From Paraburkholderia ginsengiterrae (lineage in GTDB: Bacteria; Pseudomonadota; Gammaproteobacteria; Burkholderiales; Burkholderiaceae): DNA of 64,000 nt. Of this stretch, positions 23,249 through 38,564 are shown in pieces. Where the stretch lies: NCBI RefSeq assembly GCF_001645125.1, contig NZ_LXKA01000327.1, forward strand, positions 186,001-250,000, written 5' to 3'. Positions within the stretch are counted from its first letter, which is position 1. Every line of letters begins with the position of its first letter. The notes beneath the pieces are model-generated. The model did no database searches and was not told the DNA's origin. It worked only from the letters and a program-made list of their open reading frames with translations. The translations under genes were made by a program, and so were the position numbers.

Positions 23249-23618
23249 TGGTGGAGGCGGCGGGAATCGAACCCGCGTCCAGAAGCACTCTACGACCAGT
23301 TCTACATGTTTAGTTCTGTCATTTGATTTAACCGTAGCGACGCGGACGAACACGCTGCACTACGGCGATTCACTAATTTTTCGACCCGGACGTCGTGACT
23401 CCGTCAAGGCTTAACTGACGTATATGACCTCTGTCGGTATTGCTACCGGTCTTGCGACACTAGCCCGTCAGTGAACTAGGCAGAGGACGGCGGCCCTTAG
23501 GCTGCCAGTGCGAACGTATCGTCGTTTGCAGTTACGTTTTTCCCATTGATTAACGAGGTGACGGGTCCTCGACATGCCCTAGCCGCTTCGCAACCCCTGT
23601 CGAAACCAGGTCGCCCCC
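23249..23618 (-). ncRNA. ssrA: tmRNA (transfer-messenger RNA)
   Basis: This 370-nt RNA rescues stalled ribosomes. The 5' end GGGGGCGACC and the 3' end CGCCTCCACCA form the 7-bp acceptor stem with encoded CCA, and GGTTCGATTCC is the T-loop. The resume frame at 23500-23529 encodes the tag ANDDTFALAA followed by TAA at 23497-23499. That tag is typical of Burkholderia and relatives. A promoter and a terminator flank it. End coordinates are from base pairing and are good to within a base or two. Confidence 0.97.
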
Positions 23619-30188: not shown

Positions 30189-31271
30189 ATGCGCGTCTTT
30201 AATTTCTCCGCCGGCCCTGCGGCCATGCCCGAAGAAGTCCTGCGTCAGGCTGCCGCCGAGATGCTCGACTGGCAAGGTAGCGGCATGAGCGTGATGGAAA
30301 TGAGCCATCGCGGCAAAGAGTTCATGTCGATCCACGAGGAAGCGCTCGTCGACCTGCGCGACCTGCTCAATGTGCCGGCGAGCCATCACATCATGTTCCT
30401 GCAGGGCGGGGGGCTCGGCGAGAACGCAATCGTGCCGATGAACCTGATGGGCGCGAAGCCGCGCGCGGATTTCGTCGTAACGGGTTCCTGGTCGCAGAAG
30501 TCGTTCAAGGAAGCGCAGAAGTAGGGCACCGCGCACCTGGCCGCGAGCGGCCAGACGGCTGATGGTTTCACGCGCGCGCCCGCACGTTCGGAATGGCAGT
30601 TGTCGGACGATCCGGCCTACGTGCATCTGTGCACGAACGAGACCATTCACGGCGTCGAAACGTTCGAGATACCCGACCTCGGCGACATTCCGCTGGTGGC
30701 CGACGCCTCGTCGCACATCCTGTCGCGTCCCATGGACATCGCCAAATACGGCGTGCTGTTCGGCGGCGCGCAGAAGAATATCGGCATGGCCGGCGTGACG
30801 GTGGTGATCGCGCGCGAAGACCTGCTCAATCGCGCGCAGCCAATCTGCCCTTCGGCGTTCGAATGGAAAACCGTCGCCGAGAACAATTCGATGTACAACA
30901 CGCCGCCCACGTACGCGATCTATGCCGCCGGGCTGGTGTTCAAGTGGTTGAAGAAGCAGGGCGGCCTTGCCGCGATGGAAGCGCGAAATGTCGAGAAGTC
31001 GAAGCTGCTGTACGACGCGATCGACTCGAGCAGCTTCTATCTGAACAAGGTCGAGCGTGGCTCGCGCTCGCGGATGAACATACCGTTTTTCCTCGCCGAC
31101 GAGTCGCGCAACGAAGATTTCCTGGCCGGCGCGAAAGCGCGGGGAATGGTGCAGCTAAAGGGCCACAAGTCCGTCGGCGGCATGCGGGCGTCGCTTTATA
31201 ACGCCGTCCCGCTCGAAGGCGTCAAAGCGCTTGTCGAATACATGAAGGAATTCGAACAGCGTAGCGCCTGA
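30189..31271 (+). pseudogene. serC: Phosphoserine aminotransferase interrupted by an in-frame amber codon
   Basis: The full reading frame of 361 codons is intact for SerC, the PLP enzyme that makes 3-phosphoserine for serine and acts in pyridoxal phosphate synthesis. The one exception is a TAG at 30522-30524 (codon 112), between SFKEAQK and GTAHLAASG. Family members have Tyr there, so a single TAC/TAT to TAG change explains it. Everything else is conserved: the N-terminal [15 protein letters not shown], the PLP lysine K196 in [12 protein letters not shown], and the substrate-binding [13 protein letters not shown]. The start is the ATG at 30189. A true nonsense mutation, a sequencing error and amber suppression are all possible. 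It heads the pheA-hisC-tyrA-aroA-cmk-rpsA supraoperon. Confidence 0.93.
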
Positions 31272-31341: not shown

Positions 31342-32424
31342 ATGGACGACGAACTCAATACCCGACTCAAGCCTCTTCGCGAGCGCATCGACGCGCGCGA
31401 CGCGCAGTTGATCGCGCTCCTCAATCAGCGCGCCGCGGTGGCGCTCGAAGTAGGTGAGGTAAAGAAGCATTTCAACGCGCCGGTGTTCCGCCCGGAGCGC
31501 GAACAGCAGGTGATCGCGCGTCTGCAGGACATGAGCGAAGGACCGCTCGCGAGCGAACATATCAGCGCGATCTGGCGCGAGATCATGGCCGCGAGCCGTG
31601 CGCTTGAGAAGACCATCAAGGCCGCGTACCTTGGGCCGGTCGGCACCTATAGCGAACAGGCCATGCACGAATACTTCGGTCAGTCGATCGAAGGACTGCC
31701 GTGTCCGTCGATCGACGAAGTGTTTCGCTCGGTCGAAGCGGGCGCCGCGGAGTTCGGCGTCGTGCCGGTCGAGAATTCGACCGAAGGCGCGGTGTCGCGT
31801 ACGCTCGATCTGCTCCTGCAAACGCAACTGACGATCGGCGGCGAACTGGCCTTGCCGATTCACCACAATCTGTTGACGCTGAACGGCAGCCTCACCGGCG
31901 TGACGCGCGTGTGCGCGCATGCGCAGGCGCTCGCCCAGTGTCAGCGCTGGCTGTCGACTAATGCGCCGCATCTCGAGCGCCAGGCGGTGTCGAGCAACGC
32001 GGAAGCGGCCCGCATGGCTGCGGAAGATCCCACCGTTGCGGCGATCGCCGGCGATCGCGCCGCCACCCACTACGGCCTGCAAGTCGCGTATGCGCTGATC
32101 CAGGACGATCCGCACAACCGCACGCGCTTCGTGATGATCGGCAAGCAGCCGGCCGGCCCGAGCGGTTACGACCAGACGTCGCTGATCGTGTCGGTCGTGA
32201 ACGAACCGGGCGCGATGGTCAAGCTGCTGGAGCCGCTGGCGCGTCACAGCGTGTCCATGACGCGTTTCGAATCGCGTCCAGCACGCGTCGGCACGTGGGA
32301 GTACTACTTCTACATCGACATCGAAGGGCATCGCGACGATCCGGCGGTCGCGGCCGCGCTCGCCGAACTCGGCAAAAAGGCGGCATTCCTGAAGATTCTG
32401 GGCTCGTATCCGCGCGCCCGTTGA
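31342..32424 (+). CDS. pheA: Chorismate mutase/prephenate dehydratase (P-protein)
   Basis: This 360-residue bifunctional enzyme makes phenylpyruvate. It has three domains: an AroQ chorismate mutase (about 1-90, with LKPLRERIDARDAQLIALLN), prephenate dehydratase (about 95-270, with AYLGPVGTYSEQA and VPVENSTEGAVSRTLDLL) and an ACT domain (about 280-360, with SRPARVGTWEYYFYID) for Phe feedback. The start at 31342 is chosen over an upstream ATG at 31309 because the mutase helix begins there. It lies 70 nt after serC. Confidence 0.97.
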   Translation: MDDELNTRLKPLRERIDARDAQLIALLNQRAAVALEVGEVKKHFNAPVFRPEREQQVIARLQDMSEGPLASEHISAIWREIMAASRALEKTIKAAYLGPVGTYSEQAMHEYFGQSIEGLPCPSIDEVFRSVEAGAAEFGVVPVENSTEGAVSRTLDLLLQTQLTIGGELALPIHHNLLTLNGSLTGVTRVCAHAQALAQCQRWLSTNAPHLERQAVSSNAEAARMAAEDPTVAAIAGDRAATHYGLQVAYALIQDDPHNRTRFVMIGKQPAGPSGYDQTSLIVSVVNEPGAMVKLLEPLARHSVSMTRFESRPARVGTWEYYFYIDIEGHRDDPAVAAALAELGKKAAFLKILGSYPRAR

Positions 32425-32514
32425 TGAGATCCAGTCGGACATTCAGGCGGCACGCGGCGGCTTTCGAGCGTGCCGGCCGCACCTTCAATTATTCATAGTC
32501 GTTCGGAGATTTTC

Positions 32515-33627
32515 ATGACAGCGTCTTTCGGTCCTTCCTACGTGCGTGCCATTGCGCCCTACATTGCCGGCAAACCGATTTCGGAAGTGGCGCGCGAGTT
32601 CGGGCTGGACGAAGCGACCATTGTGAAACTCGCGTCGAATGAGAATCCGCTCGGCATGCCGGAGTCGGCGCAGCGCGCCATGGCGCAGGCCGCCAGCGAA
32701 CTGGGCCGGTATCCGGACGCGAACGCGTTCGAGCTGAAGGCTGCGTTGAGCGAACGTTATGGCGTGCCGGCCGAGTGGGTCACGCTCGGCAACGGCAGTA
32801 ACGATATCCTCGAAATCGCCGCGCATGCGTTGGTGGAAAAGGGCCAGTCGATTGTCTACGCGCAGTATTCTTTTGCCGTCTACGCATTGGCCACGCAAGG
32901 CGTGGGCGCGCGCGCGATCGTCGTGCCGGCCGTCCAGTACGGTCATGACCTCGACGCGATGCTCGCCGCGGTCACCGACGACACGCGCCTGATTTTCGTC
33001 GCCAATCCGAACAACCCGACCGGCACCTTCATCGACGGCGCGAAGCTCGAGGCGTTTCTCGACAAGGTGCCGCGCAGCGTGGTCGTCGTGCTGGACGAGG
33101 CTTACACAGAATATCTCCCAGAAGAGAAGCGCTACGACTCGATCGCGTGGGTGCGCCGCTACCCGAATCTGCTGGTGTCGCGCACGTTCTCGAAGGCGTT
33201 CGGCCTCGCAGGTCTGCGCGTTGGTTTTGCGATTGCGCAGCCCGAGTTGACCGATCTGCTGAACCGTCTGCGTCAGCCGTTCAACGTGAACACGCTGGCG
33301 CAAGCGGCGGCCATCGCGGCACTGAACGACAAGGCGTTTCTGGAAAAGAGTGCGGCGTTGAACGCTCAGGGCTATCGTCGGCTGACCGAAGCGTTCGACA
33401 AGCTCGGTCTGGAGTACGTGCCGTCGGACGGCAACTTCGTGCTGGTGCGCGTCGGCAACGACGATGCGGCCGGCCAGCGCGTCAACCTCGAGTTGCTCAA
33501 GCAGGGCGTGATCGTGCGCCCGGTCGGCAATTACGGTTTGCCGCAATGGCTGCGTATTACGATCGGCCTGCCGGAAGAAAATGAAGCGTTCCTCGCGGCG
33601 CTCGAAAAGACGCTCGCCACCGCGTAA
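32515..33627 (+). CDS. hisC: Histidinol-phosphate/aromatic aminotransferase
   Basis: This 370-residue class I/II PLP aminotransferase carries the PLP lysine in SRTFSKAFGLAGLRVG and ANPNNPTGTF in the cofactor pocket. The ATG at 32515 has GGAG 8 nt upstream; the longer frame lacks this. Its position in the pheA-tyrA-aroA cluster suggests it mainly transaminates aromatic keto acids, as reported for the supraoperon HisC paralogue. A second hisC would be expected in the his operon elsewhere. Substrate choice is inferred from context. Confidence 0.92.
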   Translation: MTASFGPSYVRAIAPYIAGKPISEVAREFGLDEATIVKLASNENPLGMPESAQRAMAQAASELGRYPDANAFELKAALSERYGVPAEWVTLGNGSNDILEIAAHALVEKGQSIVYAQYSFAVYALATQGVGARAIVVPAVQYGHDLDAMLAAVTDDTRLIFVANPNNPTGTFIDGAKLEAFLDKVPRSVVVVLDEAYTEYLPEEKRYDSIAWVRRYPNLLVSRTFSKAFGLAGLRVGFAIAQPELTDLLNRLRQPFNVNTLAQAAAIAALNDKAFLEKSAALNAQGYRRLTEAFDKLGLEYVPSDGNFVLVRVGNDDAAGQRVNLELLKQGVIVRPVGNYGLPQWLRITIGLPEENEAFLAALEKTLATA

Positions 33628-33679
33628 GCGTTGCCCCTTGACCCGCGCGCCTAATTAGCATGAAAGGCGCGCTTATTCT

Positions 33680-34621
33680 GTGACCGACGTGGCCGCGTTT
33701 TCATTTAACAAGCTGGTAATTTTCGGTGTCGGCCTGATCGGCGGATCGTTGGCGCGCGCACTGCGCGAGCGCGGCGAAGCCGAGGGCGGGCGCAAGGTGA
33801 TCGGCGTCGGGCGCTCGCCCGCGTCGACCGAACGCGCCGCGGAACTAGGCGTGATCGACGGCGCGGCGGCGTTGAACGACGATGCGGCGCTGCGCGACGC
33901 GCTGTCCGGCGCTGACTTTGTCCTGCTGGCGGCGCCCGTCGCTCAGACGCAGTCCTTGCTCGAGCGCATCGGGCCGTTTCTCGACCTGGGTACGATCGTC
34001 ACCGACGCGGGCAGCACGAAATCGGACGTGGTCGCCGCGGCGCGAGCCGCGCTCGGTGCGCGCGTCGGCCAGTTCGTGCCGGGGCATCCCATTGCCGGGC
34101 GCGAGTCCAGTGGCGTGGACGCCGCCTTGCCCGACCTGTACGTGGGCCGTAACGTCGTGTTGTGCCCACTTCCGGAGAATGCGCCGGAGGCCGTCGAGCG
34201 CGTGGCGGCGATGTGGCGGGCAACCGGCGCCCTCGTGCGCAACATGGCGCCTGAGCAGCATGATCGCGTGTTCGCGTCAGTCAGCCACTTGCCGCACGTC
34301 TTGTCGTTCGCGCTGGTCGAGCAGATTCTCAATTCGCCCGACGCGGCATTGAAATTCTCGTTCGCGGCGGGTGGCTTCCGCGACTTTACGCGCATTGCCG
34401 CGTCGAGCCCGGAAATGTGGCGCGACGTGTGCGTGGCCAATCGCGTTGCACTGCTCGACGAGCTTGACGCCTACACGGCCGTGCTGGCGCGTTTGCGCGC
34501 CGCTATCGAGTCTGCGGACGGCGCCACCCTCGAAGCCGTGTTCGCGCGCTCACGCGTGGCGCGTACAGAATGGCAGGAACAGCGCGCTGCCGGCGTTGCC
34601 AACAGCGACGCGTCGAAATAA
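33680..34621 (+). CDS. tyrA: Prephenate dehydrogenase
   Basis: This 313-residue NAD(P)-dependent enzyme converts prephenate or arogenate for tyrosine synthesis. The Rossmann motif is [16 protein letters not shown] near residues 14-29. [20 protein letters not shown] contains the conserved substrate-site His. The start codon is GTG at 33680. There is no fused chorismate mutase or ACT domain, consistent with PheA supplying the mutase. It is followed by aroA after 19 nt. Confidence 0.94.
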
Positions 34622-34640
34622 CCGGAAACTGGACTCAATC

Positions 34641-35945
34641 ATGGAATTCCTCGATCTCGGACCGTTTTCCCGCGCGTCCGGCACGGTACGTCTGCCCGGC
34701 TCGAAGAGCATCTCGAACCGGGTTCTGCTGCTTGCGGCGCTGGCCGAAGGCGAAACCACGATCACCAATCTGCTCGATTCCGACGACACCCGCGTCATGC
34801 TCGACGCGCTCGAGAAGCTCGGCGTGCGCTTCACGCGCGAGGGCGACACCTGCGTCGTGACCGGCACGCGCGGCGCGTTCACCGCGCGCACGGCCGATCT
34901 GTTCCTCGGCAATGCCGGCACGGCGGTGCGTCCCCTGACCGCGGCACTGGCGGTCAATGGCGGCGACTATCGTATTCACGGCGTGCCGCGCATGCACGAG
35001 CGGCCGATCGGCGACCTGGTCGACGGCCTGCGTCAGCTCGGCGCGCGAATCGACTACGAGGAGAACGAAGGCTATCCGCCGCTGCGGATCCGCCCAGCGC
35101 AGATTTCCGCCGAAGCGCCGATTCGCGTGCGTGGCGACGTGTCGAGCCAGTTCCTGACCTCGCTGCTCATGACGCTGCCGCTCCTGCGCACTGCCAGCGG
35201 CGTGAGCACCGTCCAGGTGGACGGCGAGCTGATCTCCAGGCCCTATATCGAGATCACGATCAAGCTGATGGAGCGCTTCGGCATCAAGGTCGAGCGTCAT
35301 GGCTGGCATCAGTTCGTGGTGCCGGCCGGCCAGCGTTATCAGTCGCCGGGCACGATCATGGTGGAGGGCGATGCCTCGTCCGCCTCGTATTTCCTCGCGG
35401 CCGGCGCGCTCGGCGGTGGCCCGTTGCGAGTGGAAGGCGTGGGCCGCGCCAGCATTCAGGGCGACGTCGGCTTCGCCGATGCGCTCATCAGGATGGGCGC
35501 GAACCTGCAGATGGGCGAGGACTGGATCGAAGTGCGAGGCGTCGGTCACGACAGCGGCAAGCTCGAGCCGATCGACATGGACTGCAATCTGATCCCGGAT
35601 GCCGCGATGACGATTGCCGTCGCAGCACTGTTCGCGGACGGTGCGACCACGCTGCGCAATATCGCCAGCTGGCGCGTGAAGGAAACCGACCGGCTCGCCG
35701 CGATGGCCACCGAACTTCGCAAGGTGGGCGCGAAGGTTCAGGAGGGCGAGGATTTCCTCGTGGTCGAGCCGCCTGAAAAGCTGATTCCGAACGCCGCTAT
35801 CGACACCTACGACGATCACCGCATGGCGATGTGTTTTTCGTTGGTGAGTCTCGGCGGCGTGCCGGTCCGGATCAACGACCCGAAGTGTGTCGGCAAGACG
35901 TTTCCCGATTATTTCGAGCGCTTCACGGCGCTCGCTCAACCCTGA
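34641..35945 (+). CDS. aroA: 3-phosphoshikimate 1-carboxyvinyltransferase (EPSP synthase)
   Basis: This 434-residue enzyme joins PEP and shikimate 3-phosphate in the shikimate pathway. The N-terminal [17 protein letters not shown] and [16 protein letters not shown] are the two signature motifs, and the NAGTAxR form marks the class I enzyme. [17 protein letters not shown] is the second family signature. The start at 34641 ([14 protein letters not shown]) is fixed by homology rather than by the longer upstream frame, which overlaps tyrA. It is followed by cmk after 35 nt. Confidence 0.97.
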
Positions 35946-35980
35946 TTCGACCCCGAATTGACTGACGTGCGACTTTTTCG

Positions 35981-36667
35981 ATGAAACCGACCCGTCCCTT
36001 TCACCAGACGCCCGTCATTACGATCGACGGCCCAAGTGCCTCCGGCAAAGGCACCGTGGCCGCGCTGGTGGCCGCGAGCCTCGGCTTCCATCTGCTGGAC
36101 AGCGGCGCGCTGTACCGTCTCACCGCGCTGGCCAGCCTGCGCTATGGCATCGCGGCGGACAATGCCGACGCCCTTGTGGAACTGGTCGACGACCTCCATA
36201 TCACGTTCCGCGAGGGGCTGGCGCAACTCGACGGCATCGACGTGTCGGCTGAGATTCGTGCCGAGGAAGTGGGCAGCCGCGCTTCGGCAATCGCCGTGCA
36301 CGCCCCCGTGCGCACCGCGCTGGTGGCGCGTCAGCGGGCATTCCGCAAGGAGCCCGGGCTGGTCGCCGACGGCCGCGACATGGGCACCGTGATCTTCCAG
36401 GACGCCGTGCTGAAGGTGTTCATGACCGCCAGCGTCGAGGCCCGTGCGACGCGCCGGTATAAGCAATTGATCCAAAAAGGATTTTCTGCTAATATAGATG
36501 ACTTGCTCCGGGATTTGCGTGAGCGCGACGAGCGTGACAGTCAGCGCGCAGCCGCGCCACTCAAGCCCGCGGCGGATGCAAAGCTGCTTGATACCTCCGC
36601 ATTGTCGATCGACCAGGCGGTCGAGCAGGTGGTGCAATGGTATGAAGCTTTAACCCCGCATGCCTGA
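35981..36667 (+). CDS. cmk: Cytidylate kinase
   Basis: This 228-residue kinase phosphorylates CMP and dCMP. The P-loop is [19 protein letters not shown] near residues 13-31. [11 protein letters not shown] and [11 protein letters not shown] are the family's nucleotide-site motifs, and the LID region lies around residues 150-175 ([14 protein letters not shown]). It is in the classic cmk-rpsA order, with an intervening leader of 181 nt. Confidence 0.95.
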
Positions 36668-36724
36668 TTGAAACATGAGTTGCTGATCAGCGGCGGGCGC
36701 AGTAGAAGTCCGTTGTCAGTAGGT

Positions 36725-36745
36725 GCTTCGCGATTGTCGTGAAGC
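36725..36745 (+). promoter_or_regulatory. Hairpin in rpsA leader
   Basis: GCTTCGCGA and TCGTGAAGC (8 of 9 paired) flank a TTG loop in the 181-nt leader before rpsA. There is no T-run, so it is not a terminator. The rpsA start has no clear Shine-Dalgarno sequence. In E. coli the rpsA initiation region is also structured and autoregulated; a similar role here is inference. Confidence 0.35.
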
Positions 36746-36848
36746 GTTGTATTAACCCTTTAACCCCGCGTGGCATTCGCTTTATTGCCGAATTTGCTGG
36801 CCGTACGGTCAGCCGGGCACCGCGAGAACCATGCAAATTTTGATTTTT

Positions 36849-38564
36849 ATGTCCGACCTGCAAACCTCTACCCCGAATACCGAATCTTTTGCGGCTCTGT
36901 TCGAAGAGTCGCTGACCAAGCAAGACATGCGCGCCGGCGAAGTGATCTCCGCCGAAGTCGTGCGTGTTGACCACAACTTTGTGGTCGTCAACGCTGGTCT
37001 CAAGTCCGAAGCCTACATCCCGCTCGAAGAGTTCCTGAACGACGCGGGCGAGGTAGAAGTGCAGGCGGGCGACTTCGTTTCCGTCGCGATCGACGCGCTG
37101 GAAAACGGCTATGGCGACACCATCCTGTCGCGCGACAAGGCGAAGCGCCTCGCTTCGTGGCTGTCGCTGGAAAAGGCTCTCGACAACAACGAACTCGTGA
37201 CCGGCACGATCACGGGCAAGGTCAAGGGCGGCATGACCGTCATGGTCAACGGCATTCGCGCATTCCTGCCGGGCTCGCTGGTCGACACGCGCCCGGTCAA
37301 GGACACGACGCCGTACGAAGGCAAGACGCTGGAATTCCGCGTCATCAAGCTGGACCGCAAGCGTAACAACGTGGTGCTGTCGCGCCGCGCTGTGATCGAA
37401 GCGACGCAAGGCGAAGAGCGCGCAAAGCTGCTCGAAACGCTGAAGGAAGGCGCGATCGTGGAAGGCGTGGTCAAGAACATCACCGACTACGGCGCATTCG
37501 TGGACCTCGGCGGTATCGACGGCCTGCTGCACATCACCGACATCGCATGGCGTCGTGTGCGTCACCCGAGCGAAGTGCTGTCGGTTGGCCAGGAAGTCAC
37601 CGCGAAGATCCTCAAGTTCGATCAAGAGAAGAACCGCGTTTCGCTGGGCATCAAGCAACTGGGCGACGATCCGTGGGAAGGCATCTCGCGCCGTTACCCG
37701 TCGGGCACGCGCCTGTTCGGTAAGGTCACCAACATCACCGACTACGGCGCATTCGTCGAAGTCGAATCGGGCATCGAAGGCCTGGTTCACGTGTCGGAAA
37801 TGGACTGGACGAACAAGAACGTTGCACCGTCGAAGGTTGTGCAGCTGGGCGACGAAGTCGAAGTCATGGTTCTCGAAATCGACGAAGACCGCCGCCGTAT
37901 CAGCCTCGGCATGAAGCAGTGCAAGCCGAACCCGTGGGACGACTTCAGCCGCAACTTCAAGAAGGGCGACAAGCTGCAAGGCGCAATCAAGTCGATCACC
38001 GACTTCGGCGTCTTCATCGGTCTGCCGGGCGGCATCGACGGTCTGGTTCACCTGTCGGACCTGTCGTGGTCGGAAACGGGCGAAGAAGCTGTCCGCAAGT
38101 ACAAGAAGGGCGACGAAGTGGAAGCGATCGTTCTCGGCATCGACGTCGAGAAGGAACGCATTTCGCTGGGTATCAAGCAGCTCGAAGGCGACCCGTTCAG
38201 CAACTTCGTTGCAATGAACGACAAGGGTTCGATCGTCGACGGCGTGGTCAAGACGGTGGACGCAAAGGGTGCAGTGGTTCAGCTGTCGGCGGAAGTCGAA
38301 GGCTACCTGCGTGCTTCGGAGCTGTCGCAAGACCGCGTGGAAGATGCTCGCAACGTGCTGAAGGACGGCGACAAGGTCAACGCGATGATCATCAACATCG
38401 ATCGCAAGTCGCGTGGCATCAACCTGTCGATCAAGGCCAAGGATTCGGCTGAGCAGCAGGAAGCGATCCGCGGTCTGGCTTCGTCGGACTCGAGCGCAGC
38501 TGCTACCGGCACGACGAACCTCGGCGCGCTGCTGAAGGCCAAGCTCGACGGCCAGAACCAGTAA
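36849..38564 (+). CDS. rpsA: 30S ribosomal protein S1
   Basis: This 571-residue mRNA-binding ribosomal protein has six S1 OB-fold repeats. Repeats 3-6 are visible through recurring [28 protein letters not shown] and [10 protein letters not shown] motifs. The start at 36849 ([20 protein letters not shown]) matches family members; the upstream ATG at 36831 adds six residues. The region before the start lacks a clear ribosome binding site. Codon use is strongly biased to translationally optimal codons, as expected for abundant S1. It ends the aromatic supraoperon and is followed by ihfB. Confidence 0.98.

Follow-up and report, generated by a model that had tools for sequence, protein, structure and literature searches.

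The serC gene in this stretch of DNA was found to carry an in-frame TAG within an otherwise complete reading frame, and this stop is solitary and shows no sign of recoding. Nothing compensating was found elsewhere in the assembly, so the likeliest reading of the TAG is that one base of the sequence is wrong or that function was lost very recently, and not that it is a new biological trick.

The window analyzed here is 64,000 nucleotides long and corresponds to positions 186001-250000 of contig C222, in the draft assembly of a Paraburkholderia soil bacterium, which comprises 8.53 Mb in 393 contigs and has a listed completeness of 100% and contamination of 0.13%. The features of the serC region are summarized in Table 1. 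An amber codon interrupting an otherwise complete serC had been predicted from the sequence, and this was confirmed both by direct reading and by model matches. The two pieces flanking the stop were found to match consecutive positions of TIGR01364 as well as NF003764, indicating that the gene is in frame on either side of the TAG, and both also match the class-V aminotransferase family and solved SerC structures. When the whole frame was scored by a profile search that reads past the stop (one TAG inside the match), it reached 504.4 bits against a curated TIGR01364 cut-off of 443.6 bits; the reading frame itself is not uninterrupted, owing to codon 112. In-frame start codons downstream of the stop (TTG at 30600, GTG at 30621, and ATG at 30732) were considered as sites of internal restart and rejected, as the product would be a fragment without the N-terminal third, from which no activity would be expected. 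The expectation of Tyr at this codon was borne out, with Tyr aligned to it in 78 of 80 named relatives and Phe in the other 2 (relatives gathered by a search with the C-terminal piece, the first 54 being titled Paraburkholderia, or Burkholderia sp. without a species name; the genus of the present genome is assigned from these titles). The TAG lies one base from a Tyr codon, and a single base change accounts for it, as originally predicted.

Table 1. Features of the serC region, with positions counted from the first base of the window
Feature	Position	Strand	Description and basis
serC (phosphoserine/phosphohydroxythreonine transaminase)	30189..31271	+	ATG at 30189 to TGA at 31269-31271; 360 codons plus TGA, one interruption; translation
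N-terminal SerC piece, 111 aa	30189..30521	+	NF003764 positions 2-110 (2.1e-46); class-V aminotransferase; PDB SerC chains
In-frame TAG, serC codon 112	30522..30524	+	Sole internal stop of the frame; read directly
C-terminal SerC piece, 248 aa	30525..31271	+	NF003764 positions 117-356 of 357 (9.8e-110); best solved relative 4xk1_A (3.7e-90)
pheA (chorismate mutase/prephenate dehydratase)	31342..32424	+	Open frame; NCBIfam
hisC, prephenate dehydrogenase, aroA, cmk, rpsA	32470..38564	+	Open frames; NCBIfam

The distribution of the stop among relatives was examined along with the constraint on the surrounding sequence. A serC match was detected in all 145 genomes of the genus that were searched, and in 143 of these, the present one included, it was above the curated cut-off; the two exceptions are genomes of 86% and 84% completeness. 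Within an above-cut-off serC a stop was found in this genome only, the other 142 being free of any. Similarly, among the matches listed, down to weak ones, for a second set of 99 relatives (this genome included, 94 with a match), a stop occurred only here. The remainder of the gene was free of further stops. In a pool of 76 ungapped sequences (our own and 75 of the 80 relatives), the private changes of serC comprised 8 silent and 6 replacing ones, divided into 2 silent and 3 replacing in the N-terminal part and 6 silent and 3 replacing in the C-terminal part, with 4 of the 6 replacements swapping similar hydrophobic residues. Two private replacements fell at otherwise invariant sites, compared with a highest value of 3 in any genome (81 sequences); for pheA, next downstream, this number was zero over 361 columns and 81 sequences. 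Thus, serC appears to show no significant decay on either side of the TAG and would not be an old pseudogene, with a slight relaxation being possible. These data bear on an alternative to which we give somewhat less than an even chance, namely that the stop is a real and very recent null, SerC having been lost in the isolate or in the sequenced culture and a 111-aa fragment being made in its place. In favor of such a null, private replacing changes are somewhat commoner in serC (6 of 14) than in the 12 nearest relatives summed (22 of 94, with 72 silent), a direction that fits a constraint only just lifted, the numbers being too small to carry weight. Against it are the 142 genus genomes with an above-cut-off serC and no stop, the open frame of serB, the open frames of the genes downstream of serC (noted earlier as looking intact, and identified here by NCBIfam matches), and the absence, among the literature matches listed, of a report of such a strain or of a serC amber in Paraburkholderia.

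The general quality of the assembly was assessed by searching for interior stops in other genes. A homology scan of 419 genes of relative G170 (145,918 codons) was performed against 1.46 Mb of the present genome, with some stretches overlapping and the best-scoring frame kept at each place (an earlier version was swamped by antisense frames). Stops were flagged in 22 rows of this comparison and frame changes in 5. Two of the stop rows were judged real, serC (TAG) and rluE (TAA); of the other 20, the translations of 2 were inspected, and the rest were dropped by pattern as antisense frames, over-long starts, or low identity. The reverse comparison of 427 genes flagged 19 stop rows (2 inspected) and 4 frame-change rows. 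With two judged real in 419 genes, interior stops are rare in the sampled part of the assembly. An unfiltered three-way comparison of 254 genes yielded 8 interior one-base stops in this genome, none in G170, and 6 in G101. After requiring pooled silent changes to be at least 3.5 times the replacing changes, which dropped 34 genes and left 220, the private interior one-base stops were reduced to 1 here (serC) and 0 in each of the two relatives. Furthermore, in 56 genes (18,428 codons) polarized with three relatives, private replacing changes numbered 173 here versus 152, 159, and 89, which suggests that errors are rare and that a chance hit on serC is unlikely a priori; this set contained two one-base stops, that of serC in this genome and another in relative G185 within a 146-aa frame. 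The draft, thus, looks generally sound where sampled, which favors a recent null and weakens the explanation of a single erroneous base but leaves it standing. Genome-wide stop scans based on codon statistics were too weak to recover serC at the thresholds applied, and their hit lists were not used.

The second gene judged to contain a real stop, rluE, encodes a 23S rRNA pseudouridine synthase and is located on the minus strand of the same contig (L163:10723-11286, equivalent to C222:50723-51286). Each of its two pieces hits RluE models with a score under the cut-off set for the whole protein. The position of its in-frame TAA is occupied by Glu in three relatives and lies amid several neighboring base differences, such that the stop looks like a real mutation and rluE is probably a real pseudogene. 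This suggests that real pseudogenes exist in this genome, and the presence of at least one other gene with a nonsense codon that looks real is likewise consistent with a recent null of serC. In a separate observation, the Walker A motif of a PstB protein (L250:4525-5370, plus strand, on contig C178) was found to have Trp in place of the Cys of relatives G170 and G101, which may represent an error or an inactive copy. The serC and pstB changes share a substitution type and context, and an error signature was at first suspected. This type was counted 22 times here versus 1 and 4 in the three-way comparison (15, 1, and 2 after filtering), while the reverse complement of this type was not in excess (8, 7, and 4; three-way). 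Once polarized with a fourth genome, the excess shrank to 5 here versus 0, 1, and 1 in the 56 genes; such a signature is therefore not established and is not claimed.

We also investigated whether the TAG might be real and read through, be it by amber suppression, near-cognate misreading, or programmed readthrough, with enough full-length SerC made. TAG is the codon with the best-known suppressors, and the identity of the stop, together with the constraint that persists on both sides of it, is in keeping with such decoding. However, no machinery for recoding was detected. No CTA anticodon was present in any of the 54 tRNA matches to RF00005 (best 150 of 160 candidates scored) when these were typed by ARAGORN, in which 46 loci covered all 54, and the single tRNA-Tyr is normal with a GTA anticodon; neither an altered tRNA-Tyr nor another suppressor tRNA, for which a search had been suggested, was detected among these matches. 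RF1 is intact (540 bits versus a cut-off of 423). The TAG terminator is not depleted, as it closes 21 of the 208 orthologous genes compared in this genome versus 17 of 212 in G170; it also terminates 100 of 552 long frames of this genome. The other clear interior stop, in rluE, is a TAA that an amber suppressor would be unable to read. Marks of programmed readthrough were also missing, in that no other above-cut-off serC of the genus genomes searched has a stop and no stimulatory structure was found within 100 bases, the RNA fold in the 100 bases past the stop being no better than that of shuffles (z of -0.05). Overall, these results speak against amber suppression, and we consider readthrough of any kind to be very unlikely. 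The narrower version, in which a genuine TAG is usefully read by near-cognate decoding without a suppressor tRNA and a central enzyme runs on readthrough, would be more improbable still. A tmRNA gene with the tag ANDDTFALAA was also detected at window positions 23249-23618 on the minus strand; a longer tmRNA prediction that overlaps it is probably spurious.

The assembly was further searched for genes that could back up SerC. No second serC was found above cut-off in the whole assembly with the TIGR01364 and TIGR01366 profiles, and the proposal of a null covered by a serC paralogue is, thus, unsupported. Apart from serC, which was above cut-off, TIGR01364 returned a 36-bit match on contig C333; TIGR01366 returned nothing above cut-off and, besides serC, a 34-bit match on contig C2. 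Both were rejected as serC paralogues, the former being a 2-aminoethylphosphonate transaminase and the latter a BhcA-like class-V transaminase (458 bits, against a cut-off of 650 that it does not reach). Likewise, a DNA search with 301 bases spanning the stop returned its own locus only (best 40 of 84 candidates), with no alternative short contig. A strong second SerC match of about 343-496 bits was detected, among the matches listed, in 23 of 58 other genomes of the same genus. With respect to the routes to serine and vitamin B6, serB is present, PdxS of the alternative B6 route had no match in the genome (10 of 14 control genomes were positive), and no serA above the PGDH cut-off was detected in the assembly, where 13 weaker dehydrogenase matches were found. 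A TGA inside one of these dehydrogenase matches was dismissed, as the match ends with this codon, which is the natural end of the frame. With neither a second serC nor a PdxS found that would mask a phenotype, this search is also consistent with an unbacked recent null. A real null that is covered by another transaminase, leaving the strain prototrophic, was also considered. Class-V enzymes are available for such a role in the C333 and C2 transaminases, and non-orthologous replacement has a precedent in SerC2 (sll1559), described as such a replacement of SerC in PMC9997740. However, these two enzymes match other families far better than SerC, no second member was above cut-off in the two SerC families searched, and the strong second match seen in other genomes of the genus is absent here. 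We regard cover by another transaminase as highly improbable.

Taken together, the TAG would be a functionless one-base nonsense change that stands alone in a serC of otherwise ordinary character, with an incorrect base in the draft consensus as its likeliest source. We rank this explanation first because serC is otherwise normal, no other copy of it was found, and only two genomes of the genus set, both less complete, lack an above-cut-off match. Also in its favor are the distance of one base from the residue of most relatives, the lack of significant decay in either piece, the failure to find a suppressor tRNA or PdxS, and the finding that serC has the sole private interior one-base stop of this genome in the 220 filtered genes. 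That the draft carries a wrong consensus base and the living strain a normal serC is given an even chance, and our preference for a wrong base over a real, very recent mutation is held with no greater confidence. The recent null is ranked second on the basis of the good-looking assembly and because cultured isolates can lose such biosynthetic genes on rich medium. Of the three options in the original prediction, sequencing error, thus, stands, and a null stands only where it has no backup, while the paralogue-covered null and amber suppression do not. Should the base be an error, pathway predictors would call a prototroph a serine and B6 auxotroph from this genome; should the null be real, the growth medium or a host would have to supply the isolate with vitamin B6 and serine (or glycine). 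Either outcome leaves the general view of biology unchanged, which only a demonstrated readthrough would alter.

Three known systems are close to the present case. Spontaneous serC (pdxF) null mutants occur in laboratory bacteria, and the present case resembles them in its early nonsense change and its predicted requirement for serine and pyridoxine, with the difference that it is known from sequence alone. Amber suppression by altered tRNAs is similar in that a TAG lies in frame in a conserved gene; the present genome differs in that no UAG-reading tRNA was found, TAG is not depleted among its terminators, and no further gene among the clear cases is interrupted by TAG. For the preferred explanation of a consensus error, GapMind (PMC7311316) provides a precedent, as it is described there that apparent gaps in amino acid pathways can be sequence or annotation errors. 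The faults described are the insertion of a base and genes that had escaped calling, whereas that of serC is a nonsense base taken from the assembled genome only; nonetheless, the two are alike in that a small fault in sequence or annotation makes a biosynthetic gene seem broken or absent.
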